From NCBI RefSeq assembly GCF_002414845.1, contig NZ_DIAX01000009.1:30257-94256 (forward strand): 64,000 nt of DNA, given 5' to 3'. Numbering within the stretch: the first letter of the stretch is position 1; the number at the start of each line of letters is the position of its first letter. Below, in pieces: positions 18,782 to 41,723 of the stretch. The DNA is from Gordonia sp. UBA5067. GTDB lineage: Bacteria > Actinomycetota > Actinomycetes > Mycobacteriales > Mycobacteriaceae. Under the pieces are notes generated by a model. The model made no database searches, was not told the DNA's origin, and saw only the letters and a list, made by a program, of their open reading frames with translations. Both the position numbers and the translations under genes were made by a program.

Positions 18782-21646
18782 GTGTTCGGATGGATCGGCG
18801 CGTTCGTGTATCGAATGCGGTACACCGTCATCGCCATCATGGTGGCCCTGATGGCCGGGCTCGGCCTCTACGGGCTGGATCTGCCCAAGCACCTTTCCCA
18901 GAGTGGCTGGTTCGACCCGACGTCGCAGTCCGTAAAGGGCTCGATCATCGCTGACCAGGTCCTTGGCCGCGACCACAAGTCCGACATCGTCCTGCTGGTG
19001 ACCCCGCCCCCGGGACTCAAGATCGACGATCCCGAGTTCACGACGAAGATGGAGAACTTCGTCAACGACCTCGTCACCAACGAGAAGACCAAGGGCCTCG
19101 TCGGCCGCTCTGATCCCGGCATCGTCGACCCGTTCTACCTCGCCGACAACAGTGCCGCGGCCAAGGCGGCCCAGGACACGATCCGCTCGCACACCTTCAA
19201 CCACGACGAGAACAAGGCCTTCATCAGTATCGGCGTCAAGGGCCACGACGACACGTCGATCTTGCAGAACTTCAAGTCGCTGCGCCCCGCCTTCGATGAC
19301 ATCGACAAGCGCTTCGATCTCCAGGGTGCGAACTTCCAGCTGGCCGGGCTGCAACCCATTGCGAATGCGATGAGCGTGGGCATGGAGCATGACATCCGCC
19401 GCGCCGAAGTCATCGCCCTGCCGGTCGTCGCGCTCATGCTGTTCTTTGTGTTCGGCGGTGTCATCGCCGCGTTCCTTCCGGTCCTGATCGGCGGCCTCAC
19501 CATCGCCGGCTCGTTGGGCATCATGAAGTTTCTCGCGACGGTGACCGAGCTGAACGTCTTCGCCCAATCAGTGGTGACGCTGATCGGCCTGGGCATCGCA
19601 ATCGACTACGGCCTGTTCATCGTGAGCCGGTTTCGCGAAGAGCTGGCCGAGGGGTACACGACGAAAGCCGCGGTCCGAAGAACCGTGATGACCGCCGGTC
19701 AGACGGTGTGGTTCTCCGCGACGATCATCATCGCCGCGATCGCCTGCCTTCTTCTGTATCCGCAGGCCTTTCTCAAATCGGTGGCCTACGGGGCGATCGC
19801 CTCGGTGGCACTGGCCGCTTTCCTCTCGATCACCGTGCTACCGGCGATCCTCGGCATCCTCGGACCGCGCGTCGACGCCCTCGGCTTCTCGTTCTTGCGC
19901 CGCACCAAGACCAAGCAGGAGGTCGAGGACGGGTTCTGGGGAAAGCTGTCCGGGTGGGTGATGAAGCACCCGCTCAAGACGGCGATTCCCACCGTCCTGC
20001 TGCTTCTCGCGCTGATCATCCCCTTCGGCAATATCCAGTTCGGCGGTATCAGCGAGCGCTATCTGCCGCCGGACAATCCGACACGCATGGCTCAGGAGGC
20101 CTTCGACCAGGCCTTCCCCAAGGAGCGAACCGAAGAAATCAAGCTGATCGTCGTCTACGACGAGAACAGTACCGAGGACCAGGAACGGCTGGTCGCCCTC
20201 GCGGATTCGGCCAATCAGCACGACCGCAGCGTGCCGCCGAACGAGCGGTTCTTCACCAAGGAGTTCTCGCTGTCGTCCGATGAGGGCGCGCTGACCGGGT
20301 CCCGGGGTGATTCCGGTCAGGGCGTGGTGCAGATGTCGGCGGGTCTGCGCGATCCGAAGGACACTCGCGCCTCGGCCGATGCGATCAAGTATCTGCGCTC
20401 GATCGATCACCACGGTTTGCAGTACGTCTTTGTCGCCGGCACTCCGACGCTGACCCAGGATTCGATTGACGCGCTGCTGACCCGTCTGCCGCTGATGGCG
20501 GTCATCCTGATTCTTGTCACCGGCTTCCTGATGTTCCTGGCGTTCGGCTCGCTGGTGCTGCCGATCAAGGCGGCTCTCGTCTCGGCACTGGGTTTGGGGG
20601 CGACGCTGGGCATCTTGACCTGGATTTTCGTCGAAGGCCACGGCTCGAGCCTGTTGAACTTCACGCCGGGTCCGCTGTTCGCCGCGGTGCTGGTCCTCAT
20701 CATTGCGATCGTGTTCGGGTTGTCGACGGACTACGAGATCTTCCTGTTGTCGCGCATGGTCGAGGCGAGACAGAAGGGGGCGTCGACGACGGAGGCGATC
20801 CGGGTGGGCACGGCGCACACGGGCCGAATCATCACTGCGGCCGCAGCGATCCTGGTCGTGGTGACGGGCGCATTCGCACTCTCGGACATCGTGATGATGA
20901 AGTACATCGCGTTCGGCATGATCGCGGCCCTGATCCTCGACGCGACGATCATCCGCATGCTGCTCGTGCCGTCAACGATGAAACTGCTCGGCGACGACTG
21001 CTGGTGGGCGCCGAAGTGGATGCAGGCCTTTCAGCGCAAGCTCGGCCTCGGCGAGACGATTCTCGATGTCGAGCCCGACGATATGCGTGAGCTGAGCGCG
21101 GCCGCGGTCGGCTCGATGTCAGCGGGCACCGTCATTGCCACGGCGCCGACGACGGCCTTCGCCAGTCCGTCCCGGGTTTCGCCGCAGGAAGCCGCGCCCA
21201 CCACGGTTTTCCCGACGCCGGGAGCGCAAGCGAACGGGCCGAATCCGCTAACCGCGCCGGGAGCGCAAGCGAGCGGGCCGAATCCGCTAACCGAGTCGCT
21301 GGCAGCGCCCGTGGAGCAGCCGCCGATCACGCCTCGTCGCCCTGCGCCGATCCCCCCTGCGCCGATCATTCCTGCACCGCCGCCGATCCGGCCGGTGCAG
21401 CAGCCCGGTCCGGCGCAGGATTCGGCAGCGGACGATACCCCCGACACGGGGGCGTGGAAGCTGGGCAACGGCGGTATCCGCCTCGGTGGTCTTGATGCCC
21501 CGGCGCCGGTTCAACCGCCCCCGCATGCTCCCGCGCCCGTCGCCGATGAGGACGACGATGCCGACGGCAAGCGCGCCGCGGGGCACCGCGACCGGGAGAT
21601 CAGTGTGCAGGATCTGCTTCGCCGGTCCCGCGATCAGGACGACTAA
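18782..21646 (+). CDS. mmpL3: MmpL3-type trehalose monomycolate flippase (RND superfamily)
   Basis: The protein is 954 residues from the GTG at 18782, which follows an AAAGGAA ribosome site; an in-frame ATG 39 nt upstream lacks support. It has 12 predicted membrane helices, two extracytoplasmic porter domains (about residues 35-185 and 410-555), and the two proton-relay Asp-Tyr pairs in GIAIDYGLFIVSRFRE and GLSTDYEIFLLSRM. The cytoplasmic C-tail (from about residue 755) is Pro/Ala-rich and contains a 13-residue tandem duplication (PGAQANGPNPLTA / PGAQASGPNPLTE). The trmB-NYN-mmpL3 order identifies it as the MmpL3 orthologue, which exports trehalose monomycolate for outer-membrane assembly and is essential in relatives. 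Confidence 0.93.
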   Translation: MFGWIGAFVYRMRYTVIAIMVALMAGLGLYGLDLPKHLSQSGWFDPTSQSVKGSIIADQVLGRDHKSDIVLLVTPPPGLKIDDPEFTTKMENFVNDLVTNEKTKGLVGRSDPGIVDPFYLADNSAAAKAAQDTIRSHTFNHDENKAFISIGVKGHDDTSILQNFKSLRPAFDDIDKRFDLQGANFQLAGLQPIANAMSVGMEHDIRRAEVIALPVVALMLFFVFGGVIAAFLPVLIGGLTIAGSLGIMKFLATVTELNVFAQSVVTLIGLGIAIDYGLFIVSRFREELAEGYTTKAAVRRTVMTAGQTVWFSATIIIAAIACLLLYPQAFLKSVAYGAIASVALAAFLSITVLPAILGILGPRVDALGFSFLRRTKTKQEVEDGFWGKLSGWVMKHPLKTAIPTVLLLLALIIPFGNIQFGGISERYLPPDNPTRMAQEAFDQAFPKERTEEIKLIVVYDENSTEDQERLVALADSANQHDRSVPPNERFFTKEFSLSSDEGALTGSRGDSGQGVVQMSAGLRDPKDTRASADAIKYLRSIDHHGLQYVFVAGTPTLTQDSIDALLTRLPLMAVILILVTGFLMFLAFGSLVLPIKAALVSALGLGATLGILTWIFVEGHGSSLLNFTPGPLFAAVLVLIIAIVFGLSTDYEIFLLSRMVEARQKGASTTEAIRVGTAHTGRIITAAAAILVVVTGAFALSDIVMMKYIAFGMIAALILDATIIRMLLVPSTMKLLGDDCWWAPKWMQAFQRKLGLGETILDVEPDDMRELSAAAVGSMSAGTVIATAPTTAFASPSRVSPQEAAPTTVFPTPGAQANGPNPLTAPGAQASGPNPLTESLAAPVEQPPITPRRPAPIPPAPIIPAPPPIRPVQQPGPAQDSAADDTPDTGAWKLGNGGIRLGGLDAPAPVQPPPHAPAPVADEDDDADGKRAAGHRDREISVQDLLRRSRDQDD
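21217..21294 (+). repeat. Two 39-nt tandem copies of a dispersed repeat inside mmpL3
   Basis: The two copies start at 21217 and 21256 and differ at few positions. The core, GGGAGCGCAAGCGAGCGGGC followed by CGAAT, recurs almost identically in leuS at 40557-40652 (one A fewer). It is kept in frame and encodes PGAQA(N/S)GPNPLT in the cytoplasmic tail. Confidence 0.88.
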
Positions 21647-21652
21647 CCCTGG

Positions 21653-22297
21653 TCAGTCGTTGCCGTCCAACCCGTGTTCGATCGCGTAGCGGGCGAGTTC
21701 GACTCGGTTGGCCAGTTGCAGCTTCCGCAGCGAGGACTGCACGTGGTTCTCGACGGTTCGGTGGCTAAGGAATAGTTTCGTCGCGATTTGTTTGGCGGTC
21801 ATCCCCTTCGCCACGTACCGCAGGACCTCCGTCTCGCGGGGCGACAGGATCGGCTTGGCCGGATCACTGCTGGCCGACAACCGGCGAAACTCACCCAGGA
21901 CCAGCCCGGCCAGGCCGGGGGTGAATACGGCTTGCCCGGCTGCGGTTGCCCGCACCCCGGCGATCATCTCGTCACGGGAGGCACTCTTGACCAGATATCC
22001 GGCGGCACCGGCCTTCACCGCCTCGAGCACGTCGTCACGCTCATCGGAGGCGGACAGCACCATTACTCGCGTCGCCGGGCAGACCGCCAGCAGCTGCGCC
22101 GTGGCCTGCGCGCCGCTGCCGTCGGGGAGGTGCATGTCCATCAGGACCACGTCGGGCTGAACGGCGGCGGCTCGTCGTACGGCGGCCGCCACCCCGGCGG
22201 CCGTCGCGACGACCTCGAAGCCTTCGTCGAGAAGGTCCCGCTCGATACCGTCGCACCACATCGGGTGGTCGTCGACGATCATCACTCGGATTGTCAT
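21653..22297 (-). CDS. LuxR/NarL-type response regulator (MacR-like)
   Basis: The protein is 214 residues from the ATG at 22297. The receiver domain begins IRVMIVDDHPMW with the acidic pair DD9-10, phosphoacceptor Asp54 in VVLMDMHLPDG, and conserved Lys in GYLVKSA. The C-terminal LuxR helix-turn-helix is SPRETEVLRYVAKGMTAKQI followed by FLSHRTVENHV. Its start overlaps the histidine kinase stop by 4 nt (ATGA). It is the output of the adjoining kinase; targets are unknown. Confidence 0.92.
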   Translation of the reverse strand: MTIRVMIVDDHPMWCDGIERDLLDEGFEVVATAAGVAAAVRRAAAVQPDVVLMDMHLPDGSGAQATAQLLAVCPATRVMVLSASDERDDVLEAVKAGAAGYLVKSASRDEMIAGVRATAAGQAVFTPGLAGLVLGEFRRLSASSDPAKPILSPRETEVLRYVAKGMTAKQIATKLFLSHRTVENHVQSSLRKLQLANRVELARYAIEHGLDGND

Positions 22298-23568
22298 TCC
22301 AGCCTCCGTTCGACCCCGCCATCGTTGCCGCCATGATCGCGCAGCGGGACCGTCAACTCCCATTCGGTGCCCGCGCCGGGAGTCGAATCCAGCACGACTC
22401 GGCCGCCCAGCGTCTCGATGCGCCCGATGATGGCCTGGGCGACACCGAGCCGACCTTCGGCCGCGGCGGCCGCCAGCCGTCCCGGCTCGATGCCGATGCC
22501 GTCGTCGCGGATGCTGATCACCAGTTCGTCGCCGAGATCCTCCAACAGGACGAATGCGTGGGCCCCCGGACCGGCGTGGCGATCAACGTTGTCGAGGGCG
22601 TTGCGCACGGCGCCGTCGATCTCGGTGCCGCGCTCGATGGGCACCGGGACCGGGTCGCGCGGGGTACTGACCGACACCACCCCGCTGGTCCGGCCGCGCA
22701 GCAACAACGCCAAATCAATCCGGTCCCCGTGCTCGCGGGCCGGGTGGTCCATGCCGACGCGGTCCTCGTCGGCCCGCTCGGTGAGAAGTCGGCGCAGGGC
22801 GCGTTCTTGCTCCCCGGCCAGCCCGGCCAGCTCCGCGGTGGGGCCGCCGATTTCGCGTCCGCGGCGTGAGATCATCGCCAGCGCCTGCAGGACGCCGTCG
22901 TGAACGTGGCGGGCCAACCGGTCGCGCTCTTCACCGGCTGCGGCATAGCGCGCGGCCTGCGTCAGCAGCTCGTGGTTGCGCCGCCCACTGGTCGCCGCCC
23001 ATCCGACGACGAGGCCCAGGAAGAGCAACTGGATGAGCTGGGCGTTGCGGCCGAAGTTTAGATTCACCTGCCCTTTGACGACGACGGAGGACGCCCACAC
23101 CGCGACGCCGGTCAGCGCGCCGCCCGTTGCCCCGCCCAGAATGGCCGCCGAGATCACCGCGTTGCAGGCCCACAGCGTCGTCGGCCAAGACTGGTTGTCG
23201 GCGATCCAGGGCGCCGACGCGACATAGGACGTGGAGAGCATCAGTGCCGCGGTGACGGCGATGTCGGCGCCCACCCAGCCCCAGTTCCGCCCGAATCCGA
23301 TGAGGTAGGCGGCAGCGCAGGCCGCCGACCACCCGACGAGGCCGGCGCACAGCACCGCCGTCACCCGTGGGCGTTCCAGCTGCCCGTTGACGGCCGCCTG
23401 GAATCCGACGGCATACACCAATGACAGCGCGCGGAAGACTTGGGCGGCCCGCCACAACGGTGCCGCGGCGTCCTCGTCGATATTCCGCATCCGGTCCAAC
23501 CAGTCCCGCCGCGCCTCGATCCGAGGAGATGTGGGCCGAGAAGATGTGGGCCGCTCCCCCTCGGTCAC
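22294..23568 (-). CDS. Sensor histidine kinase, HisKA_3 type (MacS-like)
   Basis: The protein is 424 residues if started at the GTG at 23568, which overlaps the AI-2E gene stop as GTGA; a later ATG at 23490 is possible. About six membrane segments occupy residues 45-205 with no large extracytoplasmic loop. The H-box ARHVHDGVLQAL places the phosphoacceptor at His223. The ATPase domain has the N-box VRNALDNVDRHA, G1 box DDGIGI and a GLG-like region (GRLGVAQ). It probably senses a membrane state rather than a soluble ligand. It is coupled to the transporter before it and the regulator after it. Confidence 0.9.
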   Translation of the reverse strand: MTEGERPTSSRPTSPRIEARRDWLDRMRNIDEDAAAPLWRAAQVFRALSLVYAVGFQAAVNGQLERPRVTAVLCAGLVGWSAACAAAYLIGFGRNWGWVGADIAVTAALMLSTSYVASAPWIADNQSWPTTLWACNAVISAAILGGATGGALTGVAVWASSVVVKGQVNLNFGRNAQLIQLLFLGLVVGWAATSGRRNHELLTQAARYAAAGEERDRLARHVHDGVLQALAMISRRGREIGGPTAELAGLAGEQERALRRLLTERADEDRVGMDHPAREHGDRIDLALLLRGRTSGVVSVSTPRDPVPVPIERGTEIDGAVRNALDNVDRHAGPGAHAFVLLEDLGDELVISIRDDGIGIEPGRLAAAAAEGRLGVAQAIIGRIETLGGRVVLDSTPGAGTEWELTVPLRDHGGNDGGVERRLE

Positions 23569-24722
23569 CGGGTATCCCAGGTCGGCGAATCCGGTTCGGC
23601 GACCAGCTCTACACCGCCGACGAGTTCGGCCCCGTCGCCGTCCACACCGGTCGCCAGTTCGCCCGGCCAGACATTCAGTTCGCGGATCGCGGTATTGAGG
23701 AAGGCGATCAGCGGAACAGCCAGCAGACCGCCGACGATCCCCGCCAGGACGATGCCCCCGGCGATGGCCAGTACCACCGCAACCGGGTGCAGGCGCACCG
23801 ATCGGCCGAGGAGGAAGGGCTGCAACACATGGCTTTCCACCTGCATGACGGCGATGACGATGGCGAGCGCGATGACCGCGGCCAGCCATCCGTTGGTGAC
23901 CAGCGCGACGAGGACGGCGACCCCGCCGGTGACGAGCGCGCCCACGATGGGGATGAACGCCCCGAGGAACACCAGCGACGCGAGCGGTAGGGCGAGCGGC
24001 ACACCGATGATGGCCAGGCCGACGCCGATTCCGATCGCATCGACGAGCGCGACCGCCACGGTGGCCCGAACGTAGCCGACCAGGGTGCCGAAGCCGGCGT
24101 GGCCGGCGGCGCAGACCCGCGCGCGTTGCTCGGCGGGCACCAGCTTCGTGACAAACTCCCAAATCTGCCCGCCGCCATAGAGGAAGAAGATCATGACGAA
24201 CAGGGTCAAGAAGGCGCCGGTGACGATTTCGGTCGCGGTGGTCGCGGTAGCGAGGGCGCCACTGGTGACTTTCTCCTGATTGTGGTTGATGAAGTCGACG
24301 ACGTCGCCCCCGACGTTGTTCACCTGCTTCGCGTCGAGCTTGAACGGTCCGTCGATCAGCCACGTCTTGACCGTGTTGACCGTCTGGGTCACCTGGCTGG
24401 TCAGTTCCGGGATCCCGTTGATGAACTCGCGAACGACGAAGCTCATGACCAGCCCGAGCACGCCCAGGACGCCGACCATCGACAACACCACGGCCAGCGA
24501 GCGGGGCAGCCGGCGACGATTCAAGAAGTCGACGACCGGCACCAGCATCGCGGTGCCGAGGATGGCGATGGCCACCGGCACGAGCACTGTCTTGAACTTC
24601 AGAAAGCCGATGAACAGCACCACGACGAGTGCGCCGATCACCAGCAGCCGCCACGACCACGACGCGGCCGCGCGCACCCCGGCTGGAACCGGGTGCGGCG
24701 GCGGACTCACAGATTCGCTCAT
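23565..24722 (-). CDS. AI-2E family transporter
   Basis: This 385-residue protein has the AI-2E/TqsA/PerM layout: two N-terminal helix pairs (VIGALVVVLFIGFL, VPVAIAILGTAML), an extracytoplasmic helical region (about residues 95-165), then five more helices including the conserved GTLVGYVRATVAVALVDAIG and PLALPLASLVFLGAFIPIVG. The family includes exporters of autoinducer-2-like molecules and Na+/H+ antiporters, so substrate is uncertain. It is the first gene of a three-gene operon with a two-component system. Same locus position as Rv0205. A -10 box (TAGTCT) ends 7 nt before its ATG. Confidence 0.88.
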   Translation of the reverse strand: MSESVSPPPHPVPAGVRAAASWSWRLLVIGALVVVLFIGFLKFKTVLVPVAIAILGTAMLVPVVDFLNRRRLPRSLAVVLSMVGVLGVLGLVMSFVVREFINGIPELTSQVTQTVNTVKTWLIDGPFKLDAKQVNNVGGDVVDFINHNQEKVTSGALATATTATEIVTGAFLTLFVMIFFLYGGGQIWEFVTKLVPAEQRARVCAAGHAGFGTLVGYVRATVAVALVDAIGIGVGLAIIGVPLALPLASLVFLGAFIPIVGALVTGGVAVLVALVTNGWLAAVIALAIVIAVMQVESHVLQPFLLGRSVRLHPVAVVLAIAGGIVLAGIVGGLLAVPLIAFLNTAIRELNVWPGELATGVDGDGAELVGGVELVAEPDSPTWDTR

Positions 24723-24729
24723 GGGTCCA

Positions 24730-24735
24730 AGACTA
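24730..24735 (-). promoter_or_regulatory. -10 box of the AI-2E/two-component operon
   Basis: TAGTCT on the minus strand ends 7 nt before the ATG at 24722; leaderless start predicted. Confidence 0.5.
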
Positions 24736-24759
24736 AGCAGATCAGGGTCGGTTCAGCGC

Positions 24760-24772
24760 TTAGGTACCCTAA
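24760..24772. promoter_or_regulatory. Palindrome in the divergent AI-2E / flippase promoter
   Basis: TTAGG-TAC-CCTAA overlaps the -10 region of the rightward gene and lies about 25 nt upstream of the leftward -10 box. It could be an operator for both directions, perhaps for the LuxR regulator in the operon (inference). Confidence 0.35.
24765..24770 (+). promoter_or_regulatory. -10 box of leaderless flippase-like gene
   Basis: TACCCT is followed by 7 nt and then the ATG at 24778; this fixes the start inside a much longer open frame. Confidence 0.5.
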
Positions 24773-24777
24773 CCGGC

Positions 24778-26058
24778 ATGGCACAATCGCGCCGGGCGAT
24801 CTGGCAACGCAGCAGGAGGTCCCTTCGCTGGGTCATGTTGGTCGCCATCGTCGTGGTTCTCGGAGTCGAGGGCTACCTCGTCCGGAACCAGTTCTCCACC
24901 GCGTGGGACCGCGTGGGCGATGTTCATTGGGGCTGGTTGACAGCATGTTTTGTGGCATCGATGGCCAACCTCGACAGTTTTGCACGAGTCCAACGCGCAC
25001 TGTTCCGATCGGCCGGTGTCTTCGTCTCGCAGTGGCGGTCGCTGGCGGTGGTACTCGCCGCGAACTCGTTGAGCCAGACCATGCCCGGTGGGCAGGTCCT
25101 CGCCCCCGCCTTCACCTACCGCGAAACCCGCCGGTGGGGCGCGAACCCGGTCGTCGCGTCGTGGCAGGTCGTCATGTCCGGACTGCTCGCCGGCGTCGGT
25201 CTGGCCACCCTGGGCATCGGTGGTGCGGTGCTCGCCGGGGCGCGTACCAATCCGTACTCGACGATGTTCTCGATCCTGGGATTCGTCGCCTTCGTCGCCG
25301 TCCTGCAGTATCTGGCCAGCCATCCCGCCACCGTCCACAATTGGGGTGAGAAGATCCTCGCCTGGTACAACGAGATGCGCAACCGTCCCGAGCACGCCGG
25401 GCAGGAACGGTTGGCGCGACTGATCGACCAATTGGGCGCCGTGCAGCTGACCAGGCGAGACGCCTCCGTAGCGTTCGGGTGGAGCCTGTTCAACTGGATT
25501 GCCGACGTCTTCTGCCTGCTGTTCGCCTGCTGGGCGATCGGCGCGCACCCCTCGATCGCCGGCATCGCCGTCGCGTATGCGGCATCAAAGGCGGTCGGCA
25601 CCGCGATCCCGCTGTTGCCCGGCGGTCTCGGCATCGTCGACGCGGCGATGGTTGCCGCACTCGTCCCCGCCGGAATGACCACCGGCGACGCCGTCGTTGC
25701 CGTCATTCTCTACCGGCTGGTCAGCTGGGCGCTGGTCTCGCTGGTCGGCTGGGTGGTGATCCTGGTGCTGTTCCGCACCCGGATCCGGACCGTCGAAGAT
25801 GAGACGGACGACCTCGAGGAAGGCCTCCGCACCGCCGCGCCGGCCCATCCGGACCGGCCGCTGCTGGGCTTTACCGACGATCAGCGCCGACTGATCCTGG
25901 GCCATCCAATCCCGGACGACGACGGTGCCGGCGACACCGACGATGACGGCCCGCCGGCTACTCGTGATGACGGCCCGCCGCCTACTCGTGATGACGGCCC
26001 GCCGGCTACTCGTGATGACGGCCCGCCGTCGGGCGACACGGCCTGGAAGCTACCGTAG
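24778..26058 (+). CDS. Flippase-like membrane protein (YbhN / lysylphosphatidylglycerol synthetase TM domain)
   Basis: The protein is 426 residues. About eight membrane helices occupy residues 18-340, with the YbhN-type motifs SLSQTMPGGQVLAPAFTYRE and KAVGTAIPLLPGGLGIVDA. The C-terminal ~90 residues are cytoplasmic and acidic and end in a tandem array of DDGPPATR-like octapeptides. Family members include the MprF flippase half and glycosyltransferase-associated membrane proteins, so lipid translocation is plausible. Rv0204c occupies the same position beside the AI-2E gene in mycobacteria. It runs 5 nt ahead of a DUF3054 gene. Confidence 0.82.
   Translation: MAQSRRAIWQRSRRSLRWVMLVAIVVVLGVEGYLVRNQFSTAWDRVGDVHWGWLTACFVASMANLDSFARVQRALFRSAGVFVSQWRSLAVVLAANSLSQTMPGGQVLAPAFTYRETRRWGANPVVASWQVVMSGLLAGVGLATLGIGGAVLAGARTNPYSTMFSILGFVAFVAVLQYLASHPATVHNWGEKILAWYNEMRNRPEHAGQERLARLIDQLGAVQLTRRDASVAFGWSLFNWIADVFCLLFACWAIGAHPSIAGIAVAYAASKAVGTAIPLLPGGLGIVDAAMVAALVPAGMTTGDAVVAVILYRLVSWALVSLVGWVVILVLFRTRIRTVEDETDDLEEGLRTAAPAHPDRPLLGFTDDQRRLILGHPIPDDDGAGDTDDDGPPATRDDGPPPTRDDGPPATRDDGPPSGDTAWKLP
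25942..26028 (+). repeat. 24-nt tandem repeat (3.6 copies) in the flippase-like gene tail
   Basis: Units start at 25942, 25966, 25990 and 26014 and encode DDGPP(A/P)TR. Copies are nearly identical at DNA level, so the array is recent and prone to length change by slippage. Confidence 0.9.
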
Positions 26059-26063
26059 AGGCG

Positions 26064-26507
26064 GTGAACACCGGGGTGAAAGCAAATCATGCGCGTCCAC
26101 TATTGCAGCTGCCGTTGCTGGCGACAGCTGCGATCGACACGGCGATGGTCGTGGTATTCGCGGCCTCCGGGCGGCGGAGCCACGACGAGCACCTCACCGT
26201 CCTGGGGATTTTGGATACCGCCTGGCCGTTTCTCGCCGGCGCCGCCGTCGGATGGTCACTGATGTACGTCTACGCCCACGTCGGGTCACCGGACTCGACC
26301 GGCACCCGCACCTTCCGCCCCGAGCGCGTCGTTCCGTTCGGGATCGTGGTCTGGATCCTGTCGGTGGCAATCGGAATGACCTTGCGGGCCGTACTGAACC
26401 AGGGCACCGCAGCCGCTTTCATCGGGGTGGCGACACTGTCGCTGGGCATCTTCCTCATCGGTTGGCGCGTTGTGGCCAACCGCGTCTACCAGATGTTCCA
26501 GCGTTAG
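26064..26507 (+). CDS. DUF3054 family membrane protein
   Basis: This 147-residue protein has four predicted membrane helices (ATAAIDTAMVVVFAAS, TAWPFLAGAAVGWSLMYV, VPFGIVVWILSVAIGMTL, AFIGVATLSLGIFLIGW), the length and topology of DUF3054. The motif MTLRAVLNQGTAAAFI is typical. It uses a GTG 5 nt after the previous stop; a TACCGT hexamer 7 nt upstream could also give a separate leaderless start. Its 3' end overlaps the convergent lipoprotein gene by 4 nt. Matches the Rv0200 neighbourhood. Function unknown. Confidence 0.82.
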   Translation: MNTGVKANHARPLLQLPLLATAAIDTAMVVVFAASGRRSHDEHLTVLGILDTAWPFLAGAAVGWSLMYVYAHVGSPDSTGTRTFRPERVVPFGIVVWILSVAIGMTLRAVLNQGTAAAFIGVATLSLGIFLIGWRVVANRVYQMFQR

Positions 26508-28204: not shown

Positions 28205-28298
28205 AAGTCACAATTTTCACATCTGTCGCACCGTGCGGGTCGCTTCCGGCGGCATCGGCTCCATTGCAACCCCATCACACGCCGATAACGCACCCCAT

Positions 28299-29098: not shown

Positions 29099-29123
29099 GG
29101 ATCCAGTTTTCCCCGTTTTCAGG

Positions 29124-29129: not shown

Positions 29130-29136
29130 GGAAACC

Positions 29137-31998: not shown

Positions 31999-32014
31999 CC
32001 GCCCGGGTCGGGCC

Positions 32015-32620
32015 CTAGCCGGTTTTGCGCAGGATGGACACCGCGAAGTCGGCGCCGTCGTGCCACGGCCGCACATCCCACGTCGCCAGGCGCAGGTCGA
32101 CGCGCAGCCCCGCCTGCGCAACGGCGTCGTCGAAATCGGTCAGCGCAAGATGGCGGTTGGTGTGGAACCCGACGACGATAACGCCGTCGGGGGTGAGGTG
32201 CGCGGCCAGCCGCCGCAGCACCTGGGCCTCGGTGCCGGGCGCCAGGAACACCATGACGTTCCCCGCGCAGACGATGGCGTCGAACGGCTCGCCGATCCCG
32301 CGGGCCGGCAGGTCGAGTTCGGACAGATCCCCCACCAGCCAGGCCGGCCCGGGATGATCCGCCTCGGCGGCGGCGATGAGCGTGGGATCGACATCCACGC
32401 CGACGACGGTGTGTCCGGCGTCGTGCAGGTGGGCTCCGATGCGGCCGGGACCGCAGCCGGCGTCGAGGATTCGGGATCCCCGGGCGACCATCGCATCGAC
32501 CAGTCGGGCCTCGCCGCCCAGATCGGCGCCCTCGGCGGCCATGGTCCGGAAGCGTTCGATGTACCACTGGCTGTGACCGGGTTCGGTGTCGGTGATCCAG
32601 CGGGGCGACGGGGTGGTCAT
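32015..32620 (-). CDS. Class I SAM-dependent methyltransferase
   Basis: This 201-residue protein has AdoMet motif I ILDAGCGPGRIGAHL (about residues 51-65), the acidic loop VVGVDVDPTLI, and motif IV FDAIVCAGNVMVFL. The N-terminus (HSQWYIERFRTMAAEG) is common in small actinobacterial methyltransferases. Substrate unknown. The ATG at 32620 is supported by a -10 hexamer TAGGCT 6 nt upstream. It converges with the hydrolase gene. Confidence 0.86.
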   Translation of the reverse strand: MTTPSPRWITDTEPGHSQWYIERFRTMAAEGADLGGEARLVDAMVARGSRILDAGCGPGRIGAHLHDAGHTVVGVDVDPTLIAAAEADHPGPAWLVGDLSELDLPARGIGEPFDAIVCAGNVMVFLAPGTEAQVLRRLAAHLTPDGVIVVGFHTNRHLALTDFDDAVAQAGLRVDLRLATWDVRPWHDGADFAVSILRKTG

Positions 32621-32626
32621 CCGCCC

Positions 32627-32632
32627 AGCCTA
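32627..32632 (-). promoter_or_regulatory. -10 box of leaderless methyltransferase gene
   Basis: TAGGCT on the minus strand ends 6 nt before the ATG at 32620. Confidence 0.45.
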
Positions 32633-32664
32633 TTCGCCCGGCCCAGCTGCTTCGTCCGGCCCCA

Positions 32665-34200: not shown

Positions 34201-34508
34201 CAGCGATCGGGCAGGGCAGCCAGGGCGCGGCCGGCCGCGTCGTCGTCCTCGGCCGCTGCGGCGCTAAACCGGCCGACGATCTGGCTCAAGATGTCGAGCC
34301 GGTTGGCGATGTCGACGCCGACCCGTTTCACCGGGTCGGCGGCCGCTCGGACCGCATCCCCGCAGCCCATGATCTCGGCGGTGTCGATGAGTTCGTCGAC
34401 GTCGAGGCCGGCCAGGACGCGACCGCTGCGCCGCCAGGACTGGGCCAGCGCGGCGAGTTCCGCGCGATCGACGCCGAATCTGCTGGTCGATACCGGTGGG
34501 GGTGTCAT
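34200..34508 (-). CDS. Small helical EspC/WXG100-like protein
   Basis: This 102-residue, mostly helical protein has the size and hairpin character of ESX substrates: helix 1 VDRAELAALAQSWRRSGRVLAGL, a central loop, helix 2 DIANRLDILSQIVGRFSAAAAE, and an acidic tail. There is a Trp in helix 1 but no exact WxG, and the C-terminal FSAAAAEDDDA resembles but does not match the YxxxD/E secretion motif. It is coupled to the DUF1023 gene. It may be a chaperone or secretion partner for that hydrolase. No ESX core genes are in the window. Confidence 0.6.
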   Translation of the reverse strand: MTPPPVSTSRFGVDRAELAALAQSWRRSGRVLAGLDVDELIDTAEIMGCGDAVRAAADPVKRVGVDIANRLDILSQIVGRFSAAAAEDDDAAGRALAALPDR

Positions 34509-34543
34509 GCCTTCTTGGACGCACCGCGGCGCTGATCGGTTCC

Positions 34544-35071
34544 TCAGCCGGTCGCCAATTCGACGAGCCTGCCGACGGTATCGAGGTTGCGGCCGGTGCC
34601 GGAGTAGCCCAGGGTGCGCTTGATGACCGCGGGTGTCAGCGTGGCGTTGGCCGCCCCGTCGTCGTAGCGGAGGTGCAGTTCGCGGCCGATGACGGCGACG
34701 TGTTCGGTTGGCCCGGCCCGTTGGGCGAGTGCCGTCGCGGCCTCGACGGTGGGGGTCCCGGTGAGCGCGTACACGTAGGAGAATCTCGGCTCGACGACCT
34801 CGAACGGATGGCCCGCCAGCGCGGCCGCGAGTTCGGCGGGCGTCCGGCTGATCACCTCGCGGTAGTACCCGAATTCATCCTCGATCGCCCGTTCGAGCGC
34901 AGCATCGAACTCACTCGCCTCGCCCGGCGGGGTGTAGAGCAGGTTGCCCGACGCGATGTAGGTCGAAACCTCCTGGGCGCCAAGGCTTTCCGCGATCACC
35001 CGCAGTCGCGCCATCGGCAGCCTCGCACCGCCGACGTTGACGGCGCGCAGGAGTCCGATCCGCTCGCTCAC
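34544..35071 (-). CDS. DUF1697 family protein
   Basis: This 175-residue protein has the DUF1697 start IGLLRAVNVGGARLPMARLR, followed by EVSTYIASGNLLY and the C-terminal TLTPAVIKRTLGYSGTGRNLDT (family pattern TxRNxxT). These are widespread small bacterial proteins of unknown function. GTG start. It ends 35 nt before the EspC-like gene and begins 9 nt after the DUF4185 gene stop, so it could be read through from that gene. Confidence 0.87.
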   Translation of the reverse strand: MSERIGLLRAVNVGGARLPMARLRVIAESLGAQEVSTYIASGNLLYTPPGEASEFDAALERAIEDEFGYYREVISRTPAELAAALAGHPFEVVEPRFSYVYALTGTPTVEAATALAQRAGPTEHVAVIGRELHLRYDDGAANATLTPAVIKRTLGYSGTGRNLDTVGRLVELATG

Positions 35072-35080
35072 CGATATCCG

Positions 35081-36343
35081 CTAGCGGAGCGCAGACAGGT
35101 CGGTGCGGATCAGCATCACGTTGTAGTCGTCCCAGCGCGATGCCACGAAGTACAGCGAACTCCCGGTCTCCCGCGGCCAGATATACGGCGCGTAGAGCTG
35201 GCTGATCTGGTGGCTGGGCACGATCACGCGAGGTCCGCTCCAGGGCCCCTCCGGACGGGCCGCGGTGCGCATCGTGATGCTGCCCTTGCGCGACGACAGC
35301 ATGACGAACCGGTTCAGGTAGTTGTTGTAGCGCACCGAAACCTCGGCGATCGGCTCGGTGGCAACTTTCACCGCGTCGCCGCTGTAGCCCGACCACTGCC
35401 CGCCGCCCCGGTAGTACTGATATGCGTTCATGTCGAGGAGCTGCGCCGCCGGGACGCGCGCCAAGAATAGGGCACCGTATCGGCCGTTGGGGGTGCCGTA
35501 CTGGTAGACCCACGGCCCGCGGCGCATGAATGAGCTCACCTGGAACCGGCCCTGTCCCGTGGCGGTGTGCGGCACGCCGGGGATGTTCAACTCGTAGCGC
35601 GACCGGATCGTGTTGTTCTCGACCCGCCACGTCTGCCCGTTGTCGTGCGACGAGGCGAGAGCCGAGAAGTTCGTCTCCCAGCGGCCGGCCTCGCCCCATC
35701 GTGCTATCGACATGAACGACAGGTACTGCACGCCGCCGATCGAGATTCCCGCGGTCGGGATGCGGCCGACCTCGATGTTCTTGATACCCACCGCGTTGGT
35801 GATGGGTTGGGCGAAGGTCGGGTCGGCGGCCGTCACCGAAGCCCCGGAGCGGTTGTTACCGGGATGCGCACTGGGAATGGTGATGCCCTTGGACAGGTCG
35901 CTGTTGCCGTTAGCCCGGAGCATGGTGTTGTGCCGCCAGACCATCGCCCCGTTGCATTTGCCCCACGTATCGCCGAAGGCCATGAGGACCTGCCCCGAGC
36001 CGTTGTCCCAGGGCACCCCGACGTCGGTGGCGGTGATGGCGAACCGCTTGTCGGTACGGTTCGGACTCAGTGGTCCGGTGACCCACTGCACCGTCTGCGA
36101 GGGTCCGCCGTGCAACGTGGGGAGCGGCATCTGCGGCTTCTTGCCGGGCGCCGAATAGCTGCCGAAGTCGAGGCTGCCCATGCCGATCCGCGACGATCCG
36201 GAGCTGCCGGTACTGCCGATGTCGTGCCCGACCGGCCCCAGGGCGTTACAGGGCGAGGCATGGGCGGGCGCGGGCGCAAACGTGGTCAAGGCGGCGGCCA
36301 TCGACGCGGCCGCCGCGAGTGCGGCAGCGGGTTTTCCAAACAT
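35081..36343 (-). CDS. Secreted DUF4185 protein, GH183-type endo-D-arabinanase candidate
   Basis: The 420-residue precursor has a Sec signal peptide (residues 1-29, ending PAHAS). The mature protein is a DUF4185 domain with blade-like repeats: VLMAFGDTWGKCNGAMVWRH, YLSFMSIARWGEAGRWETNF, WVYQYGTPNGRYGALFLAR, and YFVASRWDDYNVMLIRTDL. DUF4185 has been assigned to glycoside hydrolase family GH183, which includes endo-D-arabinofuranases acting on mycobacterial arabinogalactan and lipoarabinomannan; Rv3707c is a relative. It probably remodels the organism's own arabinan. Catalytic residues were not identified from sequence. A -10 box (TAGGAT) ends 8 nt before the ATG. Confidence 0.8.
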   Translation of the reverse strand: MFGKPAAALAAAASMAAALTTFAPAPAHASPCNALGPVGHDIGSTGSSGSSRIGMGSLDFGSYSAPGKKPQMPLPTLHGGPSQTVQWVTGPLSPNRTDKRFAITATDVGVPWDNGSGQVLMAFGDTWGKCNGAMVWRHNTMLRANGNSDLSKGITIPSAHPGNNRSGASVTAADPTFAQPITNAVGIKNIEVGRIPTAGISIGGVQYLSFMSIARWGEAGRWETNFSALASSHDNGQTWRVENNTIRSRYELNIPGVPHTATGQGRFQVSSFMRRGPWVYQYGTPNGRYGALFLARVPAAQLLDMNAYQYYRGGGQWSGYSGDAVKVATEPIAEVSVRYNNYLNRFVMLSSRKGSITMRTAARPEGPWSGPRVIVPSHQISQLYAPYIWPRETGSSLYFVASRWDDYNVMLIRTDLSALR

Positions 36344-36725
36344 GGTTGTGAATCCTAGCTGCTGTCACTGATGTTACGGATGTTACTGCTGTTGCCAATA
36401 TTGCTGCCGTGGCCATTGTGCCCCCCGATACCGGGTCAGCGCGGCCCGTAACCCAACCGAGACGGCGATGTTGTGGAACTGAACCCACCCTGACCTGCGT
36501 CTCTACCATAATTGCGGCGCCGAAGCTTTTAGCACGCGACCCCCATAGCAGCCTGTGAATTCCGGTGTCAACACCAAAATGTCAGCGGTTGTATACCTGC
36601 ACGTAACCCGAGTTTGGAAATACGGTCACATCTCGAACATTCAATTCGTAAGGTCACCACGACAGCCTGCTTCCCCGCAGGGACGTGGGACCCGCCGACC
36701 CGCCAACCAGAAAGTACGCTGGGAC
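36344..36725. other. 382-nt divergent intergenic region
   Basis: This is the longest stretch without a gene. It is less GC-rich than its surroundings and holds the promoter regions of the secreted DUF4185 gene (left) and the secreted unknown gene (right). It contains short direct repeats (GATGTTAC at about 36372 and 36382) and no credible open frame, hairpin or known RNA motif. Confidence 0.6.
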
Positions 36726-37508
36726 ATGAAGAAGAATCTCATCGCCACTGCGGCGTTGCTGACCGCCGCGCTCGCCGTCAGCGGCGCCGGCACGGCCGCC
36801 GCCGCCCCCGCCGACACCAAGGTCAAGCCCGTGCACTACCAGATCTCCCAAACGCCGCAGGGCGCGAAGATCACCATCAAGGACGGCACCCTTACCGTCG
36901 ACGGAAACGACCTGAACATCCGCGCGCAGAACGGCCAGTCGGTCGCGCAGCTGCCGTTGACCTGGCACCTCAACGACCGGGCCCGCCCGATCAAGGCCGA
37001 AGTCCAGGGCACCACCGCAACCCTGATCCCCGTGCGCACCGGCCCGGGCCGGCCGGTCACCCCGGTCACCCGCAAGGTCAGCCTCGAGCAGGCCAAGCAC
37101 TCGGCCAGCGAGTCCTTCACCCCGCGCGACCAGCAAGAACTAGCCGCGTTCTCGAACCGCTCAACCATCGGCAGCTTCACCAGCGCCGCAGTCGGCGCGG
37201 CGGTCGGCGCAGGTGTTGGCTGCATCATTGGCGCTGTCTCCGCCGCCGCACTGACCCTGCCGATCGCAATGCTGCTCGGTGCCGGTCCGCTCGGCGGCTG
37301 CGTCGCGGGTGCCGTCCTGCTGGCTCCGGCCGGCGCGGCGGCGGGCCTCGTCTTCGTCGGCCTGCCGATCATCCTGTTCTCGGCATTCCAGTACTTCTCG
37401 ACGATCGGGGAGCCCTGCGACCCCAAGGCCCCATACTGCAACGATCCGCGCAAGCCGAAGGACGACAAGAAGAAGTCGGCCAAGCCGGTTCAGGTCGCCG
37501 CAGCCTGA
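36726..37508 (+). CDS. Secreted or membrane-anchored protein of unknown function with glycine-zipper segment
   Basis: The protein is 260 residues from the ATG at 36726. A signal peptide (MKKNLIATAALLTAALAVSG, cleavage near AAAAPA) precedes a beta-rich domain (about residues 35-115) containing PVHYQISQTPQGAKITIKDG and LPLTWHLNDRARPIKAE. After a linker, residues 145-225 are Gly/Ala-rich and hydrophobic (AAVGAAVGAGVGCIIGAVSA), like a glycine-zipper membrane hairpin, followed by a Cys pair (EPCDPKAPYC) and a Lys-rich tail. Similar proteins seem common in Gordonia-type genomes, but no function is known to me. Envelope role inferred. Confidence 0.75.
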   Translation: MKKNLIATAALLTAALAVSGAGTAAAAPADTKVKPVHYQISQTPQGAKITIKDGTLTVDGNDLNIRAQNGQSVAQLPLTWHLNDRARPIKAEVQGTTATLIPVRTGPGRPVTPVTRKVSLEQAKHSASESFTPRDQQELAAFSNRSTIGSFTSAAVGAAVGAGVGCIIGAVSAAALTLPIAMLLGAGPLGGCVAGAVLLAPAGAAAGLVFVGLPIILFSAFQYFSTIGEPCDPKAPYCNDPRKPKDDKKKSAKPVQVAAA

Positions 37509-37529
37509 TCGCCAACGCACAACGGCAGC

Positions 37530-37565
37530 CACGGCCCGTCGTCTCCACGGAGACGGCGGGCCGTG
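37530..37565. terminator. Bidirectional hairpin terminator between the secreted gene and rnhA
   Basis: CACGGCCCG-T-CGTCTCC pairs with GGAGACG-G-CGGGCCGTG (16 bp with one mismatch, minimal loop). It lies between two convergent genes, 22 nt after one stop and 32 nt before the other. Confidence 0.75.
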
Positions 37566-37596
37566 TCGTATCTGCCGTGTCGCATCGCCGGGGGCC

Positions 37597-38058
37597 TCAC
37601 CCCAGCCCGTCGCGCAACTCTCTCGCAGCGCTGGTCGCCAGCTCATCGGCGATCTCGTTGTAGTGGTCGCCGTTATGACCCTTGACCCACTTCCAGGTGA
37701 CCCGGTGCCGAGACTCCTCGTCGACGAGGCGCTGCCACAGCTCAACATTCTTGACCGGCTTCTTGCCGGCCGTGCGCCAGCCGTTGCGCTGCCACCCGGC
37801 CACCCACGTGGTGATGCCGTTGCGCACGTAACTCGAGTCGGTGTAGATAGTCACCCGCGCCGGCTTGGTCAACGCGGCGAGCCCCTCAATGGCCCCGGTC
37901 AGCTCCATCTGATTGTTCGTCGTATGCGGCACCGCACCAGAGATCCGCTTCTCGTGGCCGCGGTAACGCAGGACCGCACCCCAGCCACCCGGGCCGGGAT
38001 TGCCCAGGCAGGCGCCATCAGTGGAGATCTCGACAATATCGTCGGCAGTATCGGTCAC
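37597..38058 (-). CDS. rnhA: Ribonuclease HI
   Basis: The protein is 153 residues from the GTG at 38058, the size of E. coli RNase HI. All four catalytic acids are in place: Asp in [16 protein letters not shown], Glu in [13 protein letters not shown], Asp in IYTDSSYV and Asp in [10 protein letters not shown], plus the active-site His in [11 protein letters not shown]. It degrades RNA in RNA-DNA hybrids. The longer upstream frame was rejected because homology begins here. Confidence 0.95.
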
Positions 38059-38103
38059 AGCAGCCGAGGGTACTAGCGGGCGCCGCGGGACCGGCGGCAT
38101 GGT

Positions 38104-38109
38104 TACGAT
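38104..38109 (+). promoter_or_regulatory. -10 box of leaderless gene at 38116
   Basis: TACGAT ends 6 nt before the GTG at 38116; no ribosome site is present. Confidence 0.45.
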
Positions 38110-38115
38110 CGAGGC

Positions 38116-38784
38116 GTGGGCCCGGTGCTGACCTTCATCGCAAGCTACTGGTGGCTGATCTTCCCGCTCAGCGCCGTCGCCGGTCCGTGGCTGCGCCGAT
38201 ACAACCGGCGGCTGGAACGACGCCGCCAGTACCGGCTGGAGATGGCTCGCGCCAGGTCGGCCACCCGCGTCGAGGAACAGCGCGTCACCCGGGTCAACGC
38301 CCAGCAGCTGCGCAACGCGCTGCGCACCCACGACGAGATCGACGACCGGTGGTGGAGCTATGAGATCAACCTCGCCACCATCATCAGCTACCCCATGCTC
38401 GTCGACGTCCGCGAACCGCTGACCCGCGCATTCCACCAGGCCAAGGGGCGCGCCGACATGCTACGGCCGCCGACCGGTGCGGTAGTCGAGGATCCCCGGG
38501 CGTTCGTCGAGTATCGCGACGCCGTCATCGAGTACGCCGCCGCGTTCGACGTCGCCGAACGGGAGGCGCGCCGTCGCAAACAGGCCGACTTCTCCCCGAT
38601 CGAGCGCGAATCGCTAGAACGCGCGCGGCGACTGGTGATGATTGCCGCCGACGAGGCGGCGACGCCGGCCGAGCGACAGACCGCCTACCGCAAGGCGCGC
38701 ACCGAACTCGACGGCCTCATCGAAATCCCCCTCGCCGGGGCACAAGAGCTGGAACGCACAATCGCCAGGGAACTCGACCCCTAG
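38116..38784 (+). CDS. Uncharacterised membrane-anchored helical protein
   Basis: This 222-residue protein has one N-terminal membrane helix ([20 protein letters not shown]) followed by a strongly basic stretch ([20 protein letters not shown]) and a long, charged, alpha-helical cytoplasmic domain with the segment [20 protein letters not shown]. The rest is coiled-coil-like ([20 protein letters not shown]). No enzymatic motif is visible. Its stop is 2 nt from the convergent leuS stop. It may be a membrane-tethered scaffold; function unknown. Confidence 0.72.
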
Positions 38785-38786
38785 CC

Positions 38787-41723
38787 CTACGGAACTATGT
38801 TGACCATCCGGCCCGGCACGACGATTACCTTGCGCGGTTCACCGTCAAGTAGCGCGACGATCTTCTCGTCGGCCAGCGCGATGGCGCGCACCGTCTGCTC
38901 ATCGGCATCGACGGGCACCGTTATCCGACTGCGCACCTTGCCCTTCACCTGGATCGGGATCTCGATCGAGTCCTCGACCAGCCACTGCTCGTCGGCGACG
39001 GGGAAGGGCCCGCGCGTCAACGACTCGGCATGGCCCAGGCGCTCCCACAACTCGTCCGCGATATGCGGCGCCAGCGGCGCCAGCATCAGCACCAACGGCT
39101 CCACTATCGCGCGCGGCGCCCCGCCGGGATGCGCCTTCGTCAGGTGGTTGGTCAACTCGATGAGCTTCGCGCCCGCCGTGTTGGTCCGCAAAGCGCGAAA
39201 GTCCTCGCGCACGCCGGCAATCGCCCGGTGCAGAGCCCGCAGATCACCTTCGGTGGGCTCGGCTTCGGTGACGCGCACCGCGCCGGACTCCTCGTCGACG
39301 ACAAGCCGCCAGACGCGCTGCAAAAAACGCTGTGCGCCCACGACATCCTTGGTGGCCCAGGGCCGGGACTGGTCCAACGGCCCCATCGACATCTCATAGA
39401 CGCGTAGCGTGTCGGCGCCGTAGTCGCGGGCGATATCGTCCGGCGCAACGGAGTTCTTCAGCGACTTGCCCATCTTTCCGTACTCCTGCGCAACCTCCGC
39501 GCCGTCGAAGTAGAACCGGCCGTCGCGCTCCTCCACCTCCTCGGCCGGCACGTAGACCCCGCGCGAATCGGTGTAGGCATAGGCCTGGATCATGCCCTGG
39601 TTGAACAGTTTTCGATAGGGCTCGCGACTCGTCACAATCCCCAGATCGAAGAGCACCTTGTGCCAGAAACGCGAGTAGAGCAGGTGCAGTACGGCATGTT
39701 CGACCCCGCCGATATACAGATCCAGCCCGCCCGGATCGTTCGCCCCATGCACGGACGGGCGCGGACCCATCCAATAGGCCTCATTCTCCTTGGCGCATAG
39801 CGCCTCCGAATTGGCCGGATCCACATAGCGCAACTGATACCAGGAACTGCCCGCCCACTGCGGCATCACATTCACGTCGCGGGTGTACGTCTGCGGCCCA
39901 TCGCCCAAATCAAGCTCAACGGTGACCCAGTCGGTTGCCTTGGCCAGCGGGGGAGAAGGTTCGGAGTCGGCGTCGTCCGGGTCGAAGGCGACCGGGGCAT
40001 AGTCGGCAACCTCGGGCAGTTCAACCGGCAGCATCGACTCCGGCAGCGGATGGGCATTGCCGTCCGCGTCGTAGACGATGGGGAAGGGCTCGCCCCAATA
40101 GCGCTGCCTGGCGAACAACCAGTCGCGCAACTTGTACTGGACAGTGCCGACGCCGGTGCCGTCCGCCTCCAGCCTCTCGACGATCGCCGTCTTGGCATCG
40201 TCGACGGTCAGACCCTCGAGAAACCCAGAGTTCACCAGCGGCCCGTCACCGGTCCACGCCGCCGCGCCGACGCCCTGCTCGGAGCCGATGACCTCACGGA
40301 TCGGCAACCCGAAGGCGGTGGCGAACTCGTAGTCGCGGACATCGTGGGCCGGCACCGCCATGATGGCGCCGGTGCCGTACCCGGCCAGCACATAGTCGGC
40401 GATGAAAACCGGGACGGCTTCGCCGGTCGCCGGATTGGTCGCGAAGGCGCCGGTGAAGACACCGGTCTTCTCCCTGTTCTCCTGGCGCTCAAGGTCAGAC
40501 TTGGCCGCGATCGCCGCGCGATACGCCGCCACCGCCTCGGCGGGCGTGGCGGCGCCGCTCGCTGCGCTCCCGGCGCCGGTAACATTCGGCCCGCTCGCTG
40601 CGCTCCCGGCGCCGGTAACATTCGGCCCGCTCGCTGCGCTCCCGGCGCCGGTCCACCGCGGGTCGACGTCAGCCGGCCACGAGTCGGCAACGATCTCGTC
40701 GACGAGTTCGTGTTCGGGTGCCAGCACCATGTACGACGCACCGAAAAGTGTGTCCGGCCGGGTCGTGAACACCTTGATGAGGCGATCGCCGGGGAGGGCG
40801 AAGTCAACGTGTGCACCACGCGAGCGACCGATCCAGTTGCGCTGCATCGATTTGACCTTCTCCGGCCAGTCGAGCAGTTCCAGATCATCGAGCAGCCGAT
40901 CAGAGTAGGCGGTTATCCGCATCATCCACTGCCGCAAGTTCTTTCGGAAGACCGGGAAGTTGCCCCGCTCGCTGCGGCCATCGGCGGTGACCTCTTCGTT
41001 GGCGAGCACCGTACCCAGACCAGGGCACCAGTTGACCAGCGAGTTGCTCTGATAGACGAGCCGCTGGTCGTCGACGATGGCCCGCCGCGCCGACGGGTCC
41101 AGTTCGCCCCACTCCCGTCCGTCGTCGAGTGTTCGCGTCCCCGAATCGAACTCGGCGATCAACTCGCCAATCGGCCGGGCCTTGCCCTGCCGGTCATCGA
41201 ACCAGGAGTTGTAGATCTGCAGGAAGATCCACTGCGTCCACCGATAGAACTCGACGTCGGTCGTCGCCACGCGGCGCCGCTCATCGTGTCCGAGACCCAG
41301 CCGCCGGATCTGCTCGAGATAGCGCTCGATGTTGGCCTCGGTGGTGGTTCGCGGGTGCGTACCGGTTTGCACCGCATACTGCTCGGCGGGCAGACCAAAG
41401 GAGTCGAACCCCATGGTGTGCAGCACGTTCCGGCCGTCCATGCGGGAGTAGCGGGCAAAAACGTCGCTGGCAATGAAGCCCAACGGGTGTCCGACGTGCA
41501 GTCCCGCACCCGACGGATAGGGAAACATGTCCTGGACAAACAGCTTGTCGTCGGGGGAGAACCCGCTCAGGTCGCCGGCCAGCGAACCGACCGGATTGGG
41601 CGCCTCATAGACGCGGCGCGCACTCCACTCGCGGCGCCAGCGCGATTCAATCTCGCCCGCGAGCTGCGCGGTGTAACGGTGCGCGGCGTCGGGCACGGAG
41701 GCGTTCGGGTTCGATCCAGTCAC
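38787..41723 (-). CDS. leuS: Leucyl-tRNA synthetase
   Basis: The protein is 978 residues from the GTG at 41723, which is preceded by a -10 box (TACGCT, 6 nt). It has the HIGH-type motif [15 protein letters not shown], the CP1 editing domain with [20 protein letters not shown] and [12 protein letters not shown], and the KMSKS-type loop [10 protein letters not shown], followed by the anticodon-binding and C-terminal domains. It charges tRNA-Leu. Between DVDPRWTG and AATPAEAV in the editing domain there is an extra tandem repeat of [12 protein letters not shown] (2.7 copies), encoded by a DNA repeat shared with mmpL3. The YqgE and MFS genes nearby match Rv0037c-Rv0041. Confidence 0.96.
40557..40652 (-). 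repeat. 36-nt tandem repeat (2.7 copies) of the dispersed element inside leuS
   Basis: Units start (plus-strand coordinates) at 40557, 40593 and 40629. Read on the coding strand, the core is GGGAGCGCAGCGAGCGGGC then CGAAT, identical to the mmpL3 repeat except for one missing A. It encodes [10 protein letters not shown](V/-)T in the editing domain, using a different frame from mmpL3 in its first half. Confidence 0.9.

Follow-up and report, generated by a model that had tools for sequence, protein, structure and literature searches.

Why should two unrelated core genes of one genome carry the same short DNA sequence, in frame, within their coding regions? The question is raised by a stretch of 64,000 nucleotides (nt) from Gordonia sp. 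UBA5067 (contig NZ_DIAX01000009.1), called the window below, in which mmpL3 and leuS both contain tandem copies of one repeat. The repeat is predicted to be a hairpin element rather than low-complexity sequence, because its outer bases covary as Watson-Crick pairs enclosing the motif GCGNAGC.

The mmpL3 gene (18743..21646, plus strand) contains two 39-nt units with 97% matches at 21216-21293, and leuS (38787..41753, minus strand) contains 2.8 copies of a 36-nt unit at 40550-40652, both as delimited by Tandem Repeats Finder. These limits differ slightly from those of a preliminary description made from the sequence alone; its tandem copies are present in both genes, with 2.8 rather than 2.7 copies in leuS. 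Unit 1 of mmpL3 (21216..21254, plus strand, 39 nt), whose core has the 4-nt loop GCAA, translates as PGAQANGPNPLTA, and unit 2 (21255..21293, plus strand, 39 nt) as PGAQASGPNPLTE; both lie within the variable Pro-rich C-terminal tail. In leuS, core copies 1 (40624..40649) and 2 (40588..40613) are exact 26-mers with Watson-Crick end pairs, and the 3' end of copy 3 (40552..40577) merges into host sequence. All three are on the minus strand, as is the net insertion of 90 nt (40557..40646), which adds 30 residues (370-399). The mmpL3 copies read GGGAGCGCAAGCGA(A/G)CGGGC and the leuS copies GGGAGCGCAGCGAGCGGGC, and the coding-strand core common to both genes is GGGAGCGCA(A)GCGA(R)CGGGC. The one-base difference noticed earlier was borne out, the extra A being present in both mmpL3 units, and translation agreed with the reading frames described for both sites: the MmpL3 peptides are PGAQANGPN (unit 1) and PGAQASGPN (unit 2). 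The peptides encoded by the repeat in MmpL3 and LeuS are rich in Gly, Ala, and Ser. The leuS product scores above the curated cut-off of TIGR00396; the best family for the mmpL3 product, NF052608, gave 986 bits, under its cut-off of 1400.

Hairpin and covarying ends

The core can pair as an imperfect hairpin: an outer stem of 7 bp with a bulged G, then an internal loop rich in G, and finally a GC stem of 2 bp capped by a GNA loop. RNA-energy folds of five examples gave the same stem, the bulged G at position 4, and the inner GCGNAGC. In PMC4686876, loops of the GNA and GNNA type are described as extraordinarily stable DNA mini-hairpins when two or more G-C pairs close them, with GCGAAGC melting at 78 C. 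The core of the repeat holds this d(GCGNAGC) motif, which in that source is an oligonucleotide motif and not a genomic element. The extra A of the mmpL3 units turns the GNA loop into a GNNA loop. The fetched loci, most of them sought with a 3-nt loop, contain 344 distinct contexts, and these two units alone have a 4-nt loop.

The first hint of covariation came from two-mismatch copies in Gordonia and Tsukamurella, which frequently have complementary changes at both ends. A search with free ends and with positions 5-23 fixed (GNA loop included) matched 57 of 59 genomes. The sample analyzed was 126 of the 150 matches listed (12 genomes), the remaining ones being further tandem copies, and corresponded to 92 arrays. 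Watson-Crick pairs were found at positions -1/+1, 1/26, and 2/25 in 70, 84, and 87 of these arrays, against shuffled means of 38.6, 59.6, and 63.7, and seven register-shifted controls fell within 2 standard deviations of their own shuffled means. For the 69 distinct sequences, 95.2% of cells were paired (86.0% when shuffled) and the covariation score was 0.226, compared with 0.067 for shuffled sequences and 0.039 for the best slid register. The three outermost core pairs remain complementary although their letters differ between sites. Pair -2/+2, the next one outward and outside the hairpin, covaries as C.A or T.G, not Watson-Crick (Fisher 2e-8 for 158 arrays and 1e-4 for the 92 arrays). Joint end changes were also found at orthologous sites, with A-T in locus L303 and G-C in L086, and with GA/TC in L334 and GG/CC in L184. 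The resemblance to palindromic elements suggested in the preliminary description is supported by these ends, which imply a hairpin.

Distribution, arrays, and reading frame

In the assembly containing the window (3.0 Mb, 86 contigs), the 19-nt core had 18 matches within two mismatches and its reversed pattern, used as a control, had none, so the similarity is not due to chance. With mmpL3 added and one chance-like match dropped, about 10 loci remain; their hosts include genes for acetoacetate-CoA ligase, a PAP2 protein, an Rv3818-like protein, and endonuclease III, as well as intergenic-looking sites. At the endonuclease III locus (L012; G000:C60, 7.5 kb), about four units form an apparent N-terminal extension, which is Arg/Glu/Gln-rich and is read in a frame different from the usual one.

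The main query for other genomes was the 26-nt core GGCGCCGGGAGCGNAGCGAGCGGGCC, again with the reversed pattern as a control. Within two mismatches it was found in 55 of 59 Gordonia genomes (0-110 matches each, 1,411 in total, against one for the reversed pattern) and in all 16 Tsukamurella genomes. At the level of the order and within one mismatch, matches were found in 9 of 397 genomes, namely all 6 Gordonia and all 3 Tsukamurella, and in none of the other 388 members; the reversed pattern matched once. A pattern scan of named genomes gave at least 119 stretches, and only Gordonia, Tsukamurella, and Williamsia occur among the 80 matches listed. Locus L127 of Gordonia oryzae is identical to L048 of genome G001, and L117 of Tsukamurella conjunctivitidis to L330 of G451. 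Carriage by phages was rejected, as no exact match was found in viral contigs and no match to the repeat in phage records. The plasmid search gave one match, located in a helicase gene of a Tsukamurella plasmid. Core-like sequences with an altered stem, GCGATCCGCGAGCGAAGCGAGCGGGCGC and GCGCACCGGGAGCGTAGCGAGCGGGCGC, occur in G042 (C21 37754 and C59 1531) and G044 (C36 51446); perhaps they are subfamilies, perhaps chance matches.

Array anatomy was analyzed in 132 arrays from loci L067 onward; these loci were fetched by the exact 26-mer, so their core conservation is partly due to ascertainment. Half of the arrays (66) contain one copy and the other 66 contain two to six, arranged head to tail (strands were scanned separately). 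Spacings between copies are 36 nt in 87 of 126 cases, and all but 4 lie within 35-39 nt. The unit of about 36 nt comprises the near-invariant 26-nt core and a tail or spacer of about 10 nt, which is specific to each locus and has the weak consensus GAATGNNACC. Downstream of the last unit, positions 9-14 tend toward CCGGCG. The free base N is the same throughout the array in 52 of 62 multi-copy arrays, the pairwise agreement by chance being 0.31. In 60 arrays, the last four bases upstream of the first core agree with the end of the first spacer at frequencies of 0.88, 0.72, 0.63, and 0.50 (0.53, 0.43, 0.29, and 0.27 when shuffled), and this resemblance suggests that arrays grow by tandem duplication following a single insertion.

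Removal of arrays with more than two mismatches in the first copy, or with a repeated or too short left flank, left 126 distinct arrays. Genes were called by our own codon-usage script, not a gene finder. Because it requires a frame that stays open across the whole array, it would class genic arrays that break the frame elsewhere; gaps between divergent or convergent genes cannot be broken genes and are therefore the fairer comparison. Within called genes 93 arrays were found, while 26 were intergenic, 2 spanned gene ends, and 5 lay at locus edges. The genic arrays are mostly in sense orientation (77, with 16 antisense), and 64 of the 93 use the frame GAGSxASGP. In genes of the window, 24% of GGCG occurrences match the sense phase and 33% the antisense phase, so the sense excess is not due to target phase alone.

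All 76 spacings in genic arrays are multiples of three. The same holds for 11 of 32 intergenic spacings and, within gaps between divergent or convergent genes, for 8 of 23 (Fisher 2e-12 for genic spacings against these gaps). Spacings of 36 nt account for 70 of the 76 genic ones and for 4 of the 23 in these gaps. Outside that comparison, the two gene-end arrays have 5 of 5 spacings that are not multiples of three, and the five locus-edge arrays 9 of 9 that are. The 36-nt mode probably reflects, in part, selection on the reading frame. In a random draw of 30 host genes out of the 93, those scoring above curated cut-offs include alaS, riboflavin synthase, hisF (two loci), prmC, ftsW, nuoN, and recD. 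Unrelated hosts, genic spacings in threes, and the empty orthologous sites described below support the earlier proposal of a dispersed element that acts at the DNA level and enters genes in frame.

A decayed copy had also been proposed in glpD. The best alignment there matches 13 of the 19 fixed core positions (6 mismatches), the window contains 96 positions with an equal or better match (true copies included), and an alignment of ten Gordonia orthologues contains no core-sized insertion or gap; the likeness is due to chance, and the proposal was rejected. The window contains other tandem repeats. A 24-nt repeat at 25942-26028 (3.6 copies) belongs to a different family and encodes (RDDGPPAT)n near the C-terminus of the open reading frame (ORF) 24280-26058. 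A 27-nt repeat at 42251-42316 lies close to the start of ORF 42241-43338.

Orthologous sites and insertion

The 30-residue LeuRS insertion was found in only 1 of 59 Gordonia genomes, that of the window. In most other Gordonia LeuRS proteins, RWTG or a similar sequence leads straight into a short GA(A/S)xP-like stretch. The insertion site falls in the interval bounded by query residues 355 and 403, which Thermus LeuRS (1h3n) spans with two residues. A model of the LeuRS fragment, of modest quality, had a mean pLDDT (predicted local distance difference test) of 61.9, with low confidence around the insert (residues 171-197), which fits a disordered loop on the surface of the editing domain. The leuS genes of L187 and L188 contain short length variants (AGSEA..), which may be decayed copies or may be independent and unrelated. 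L292, the leuS of G004, was considered as a second case and rejected: its insertion of about 30 residues is at another site of the editing domain and has no core. At that insertion, 105 nt separate the two matches. The tail of mmpL3 that hosts the units is hypervariable and Pro-rich. The mmpL3 loci compared from 15 other Gordonia gave no convincing core; in at least two of them a contig end truncates the tail.

Net insertions of 36 nt were found in the orthologue pairs L071/L178, L055 and L039/L170, L061/L052, and L316/L079, and one of 72 nt in L074/L175; the host sites frequently start with GGC or GGT. Pairs about 93% alike share insertions yet vary in copy number: L080 and L095 have orthologous arrays of 1/2, 4/3, and 2/3 copies.

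Some of these sites bear on the origin of the matched ends. At the acyl-AMP ligase-like site L336/L339, the 19-nt sequence GGGACGCCGGTCACCGTCG occurs twice, with a 17-nt core between its copies. The 11 aligned relatives carry this 19-nt stretch once, more or less similar (the nearest, L343, has one mismatch), which makes the end bases and the spacer host-derived here. The empty site L079 already reads GGGTCCGCGGACACC, an inverted repeat with the same end bases (GA/TC) as its occupied counterpart L316. Elsewhere, as in L071/L178, the spacer seems to have arrived together with the element. Both target-matched pairing and templated copying fit the matched ends. A target-site duplication of fixed length is not supported, although L336 and L104 have long repeats.

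Explanations and related repeats

Chance similarity of low-complexity coding sequence would suit the Gly/Ala/Ser-rich peptides of the window copies. Reversed-pattern matches number 0 in the own genome and 1 in 59 Gordonia genomes (26-mer), however, the copies occur in several frames, on both strands, and in intergenic DNA, and their ends covary; this explanation is almost certainly wrong. The preliminary description had tied it to a lack of further copies or to insertions that are ancient and widely conserved. Further copies exist in the genome and its relatives, and the mmpL3 and leuS alleles compared here have insertions that are neither ancient nor shared, so neither ground holds. A functional site, such as a binding site or processing signal kept by selection and multiplied because it is useful, is improbable as well. 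A core near-invariant across three genera speaks for it, partly as a result of how copies were sought, but 93 of the 126 arrays lie within genes and follow the gene frame, presence and copy number vary widely between species, and arrays in co-directional gaps (4 sense and 6 antisense, a small number) have no preferred orientation.

A more serious possibility, although we do not favor it, is that no dedicated mobiliser exists and that the repeat spreads when replication switches templates at hairpins and short homologies. Snap-back copying, known as quasi-palindrome correction, would then produce the complementary ends and slippage the arrays. The variable length of flanking direct repeats, the L336 core between two copies of a host sequence that is single in aligned relatives, and the joint changes of end pairs at orthologous sites agree with this. 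So does the outcome of a search for Y1 transposases of the type associated with repetitive extragenic palindromic (REP) sequences (REP-associated tyrosine transposases, RAYTs; Y1_Tnp, PF01797), which found none in 16 Gordonia genomes; the same search was positive for 1 of 9 other relatives and for 5 of 14 control genomes. Snap-back copying should, however, erase the bulged G and the G.A mismatches, which are near-invariant (in part a result of fixing positions 5-23 in the search), and it does not account for a -2/+2 pair that covaries as C.A or T.G.

The leading explanation, which we hold to be about as likely as not, is that the repeat is a very small, non-autonomous, hairpin-forming dispersed element of Gordonia, Tsukamurella, and Williamsia. 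The hairpin would form in single-stranded DNA and be what is recognized and copied, with the help of a putative mobilising factor. New units would enter GGCG-like sites, often CCGGCG, and the end bases would become complementary through matching to the target or through copying from it as a template. Arrays may then expand and shrink through slippage, while purifying selection would clear frame-breaking and most antisense insertions. We propose more tentatively, as a rather unlikely extension, a minimal class of mobile DNA: an element of 17-26 nt that consists solely of a GNA-capped single-stranded DNA hairpin. Its end bases would be specified by the target, with target choice or copying relying on pairing of the hairpin ends with the insertion site, and its most frequent frame within genes encodes a seemingly harmless Gly/Ala/Ser linker, so that it could be tolerated in essential genes.

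Several results weigh against a mobile element. Neither a mobilising enzyme nor a new insertion or movement was seen in the genomes compared. In one of the five covariation measures, pairs with a double change numbered 3 against 2.8 when shuffled, which is no excess. At the L303/L086 site, the ends of L327 are unpaired in the first unit (C, T) and form a wobble in the second (G, T); the mmpL3 units also do not have full end pairing. DNA folding energy is not below that of shuffled sequences (z +1.1, +0.7, and +0.5). Target duplication is weak: direct repeats of at least 6 nt flank 25 of 195 arrays, against 9.1 when shuffled, with no fixed length and only two of at least 10 nt, and single insertions have a weak match between left and right flanks. 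With a coding test based on flanks only (122 arrays), the frame contrast is weaker: 5 of 48 genic spacings deviate from multiples of three, as do 21 of 72 other spacings (p 0.02). The five genic cases come from two arrays that the codon-usage caller places at or beside a gene end.

Among known systems, Rickettsia palindromic elements (RPEs) are described in PMC10969869 as dispersed palindrome-like DNA of about 150 bp that enters unrelated genes in frame and adds a conserved peptide. The Gordonia repeat shares in-frame insertion with an added peptide (93 of 126 arrays genic, 64 of 93 in GAGSxASGP, varied hosts), and its covarying ends indicate a hairpin although its folding energy is not unusual. 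Unlike RPEs, it has a unit of about 36 nt, forms tandem arrays, and occurs in actinobacteria; its size places it outside the RPEs, to which it had first been likened. REP sequences and REP doublets forming hairpins (REPINs) are, according to PMC3116915, also short, hairpin-forming, dispersed, non-autonomous repeats, and the small dispersed repeats (SDRs) of cyanobacteria are named there. REPs are extragenic and RAYT-linked, whereas the Gordonia repeat is mostly intragenic; with no Y1_Tnp found in 16 of 16 Gordonia genomes, a REP/RAYT origin was rejected.

Miniature inverted-repeat transposable elements (MITEs) are mobilised by transposases, and their terminal inverted repeats measure 4-30 bp. 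In the Gordonia repeat about four complementary end bases precede the bulge, with letters differing between sites, and the excess of flanking repeats given above has no fixed length as a target-site duplication. The SDRs of cyanobacteria are very short, mobile dispersed repeats of 21-27 nt, some within genes. The size of the Gordonia repeat fits this range, in a comparison of general features; we know of no tandem frame-keeping arrays or covarying ends in SDRs. In Mycobacteriales, the mycobacterial interspersed repetitive units (MIRUs) are likewise short direct repeats that form tandem arrays of variable size; they are longer than the Gordonia unit and mainly intergenic. This comparison, too, is one of general features, and the 26-mer (one mismatch) is absent from the 388 order members outside Gordonia and Tsukamurella. 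We judge the repeat to be an in-frame kind of small dispersed repeat. No description of it was found in the literature searched, which largely excluded subscription journals.

The repeat provides a clear natural case in which a dispersed DNA hairpin, and not drift or domain shuffling, has added in-frame length to proteins, including enzymes essential in most bacteria (leuS, alaS). Its 1,411 matches in 59 genomes offer many presence/absence pairs for the question of how tiny repeats spread, which is shared with RPEs, SDRs, and REP-like sequences. They also call for caution, as linker-like peptides and length differences among Gordonia orthologues can stem from a DNA element.

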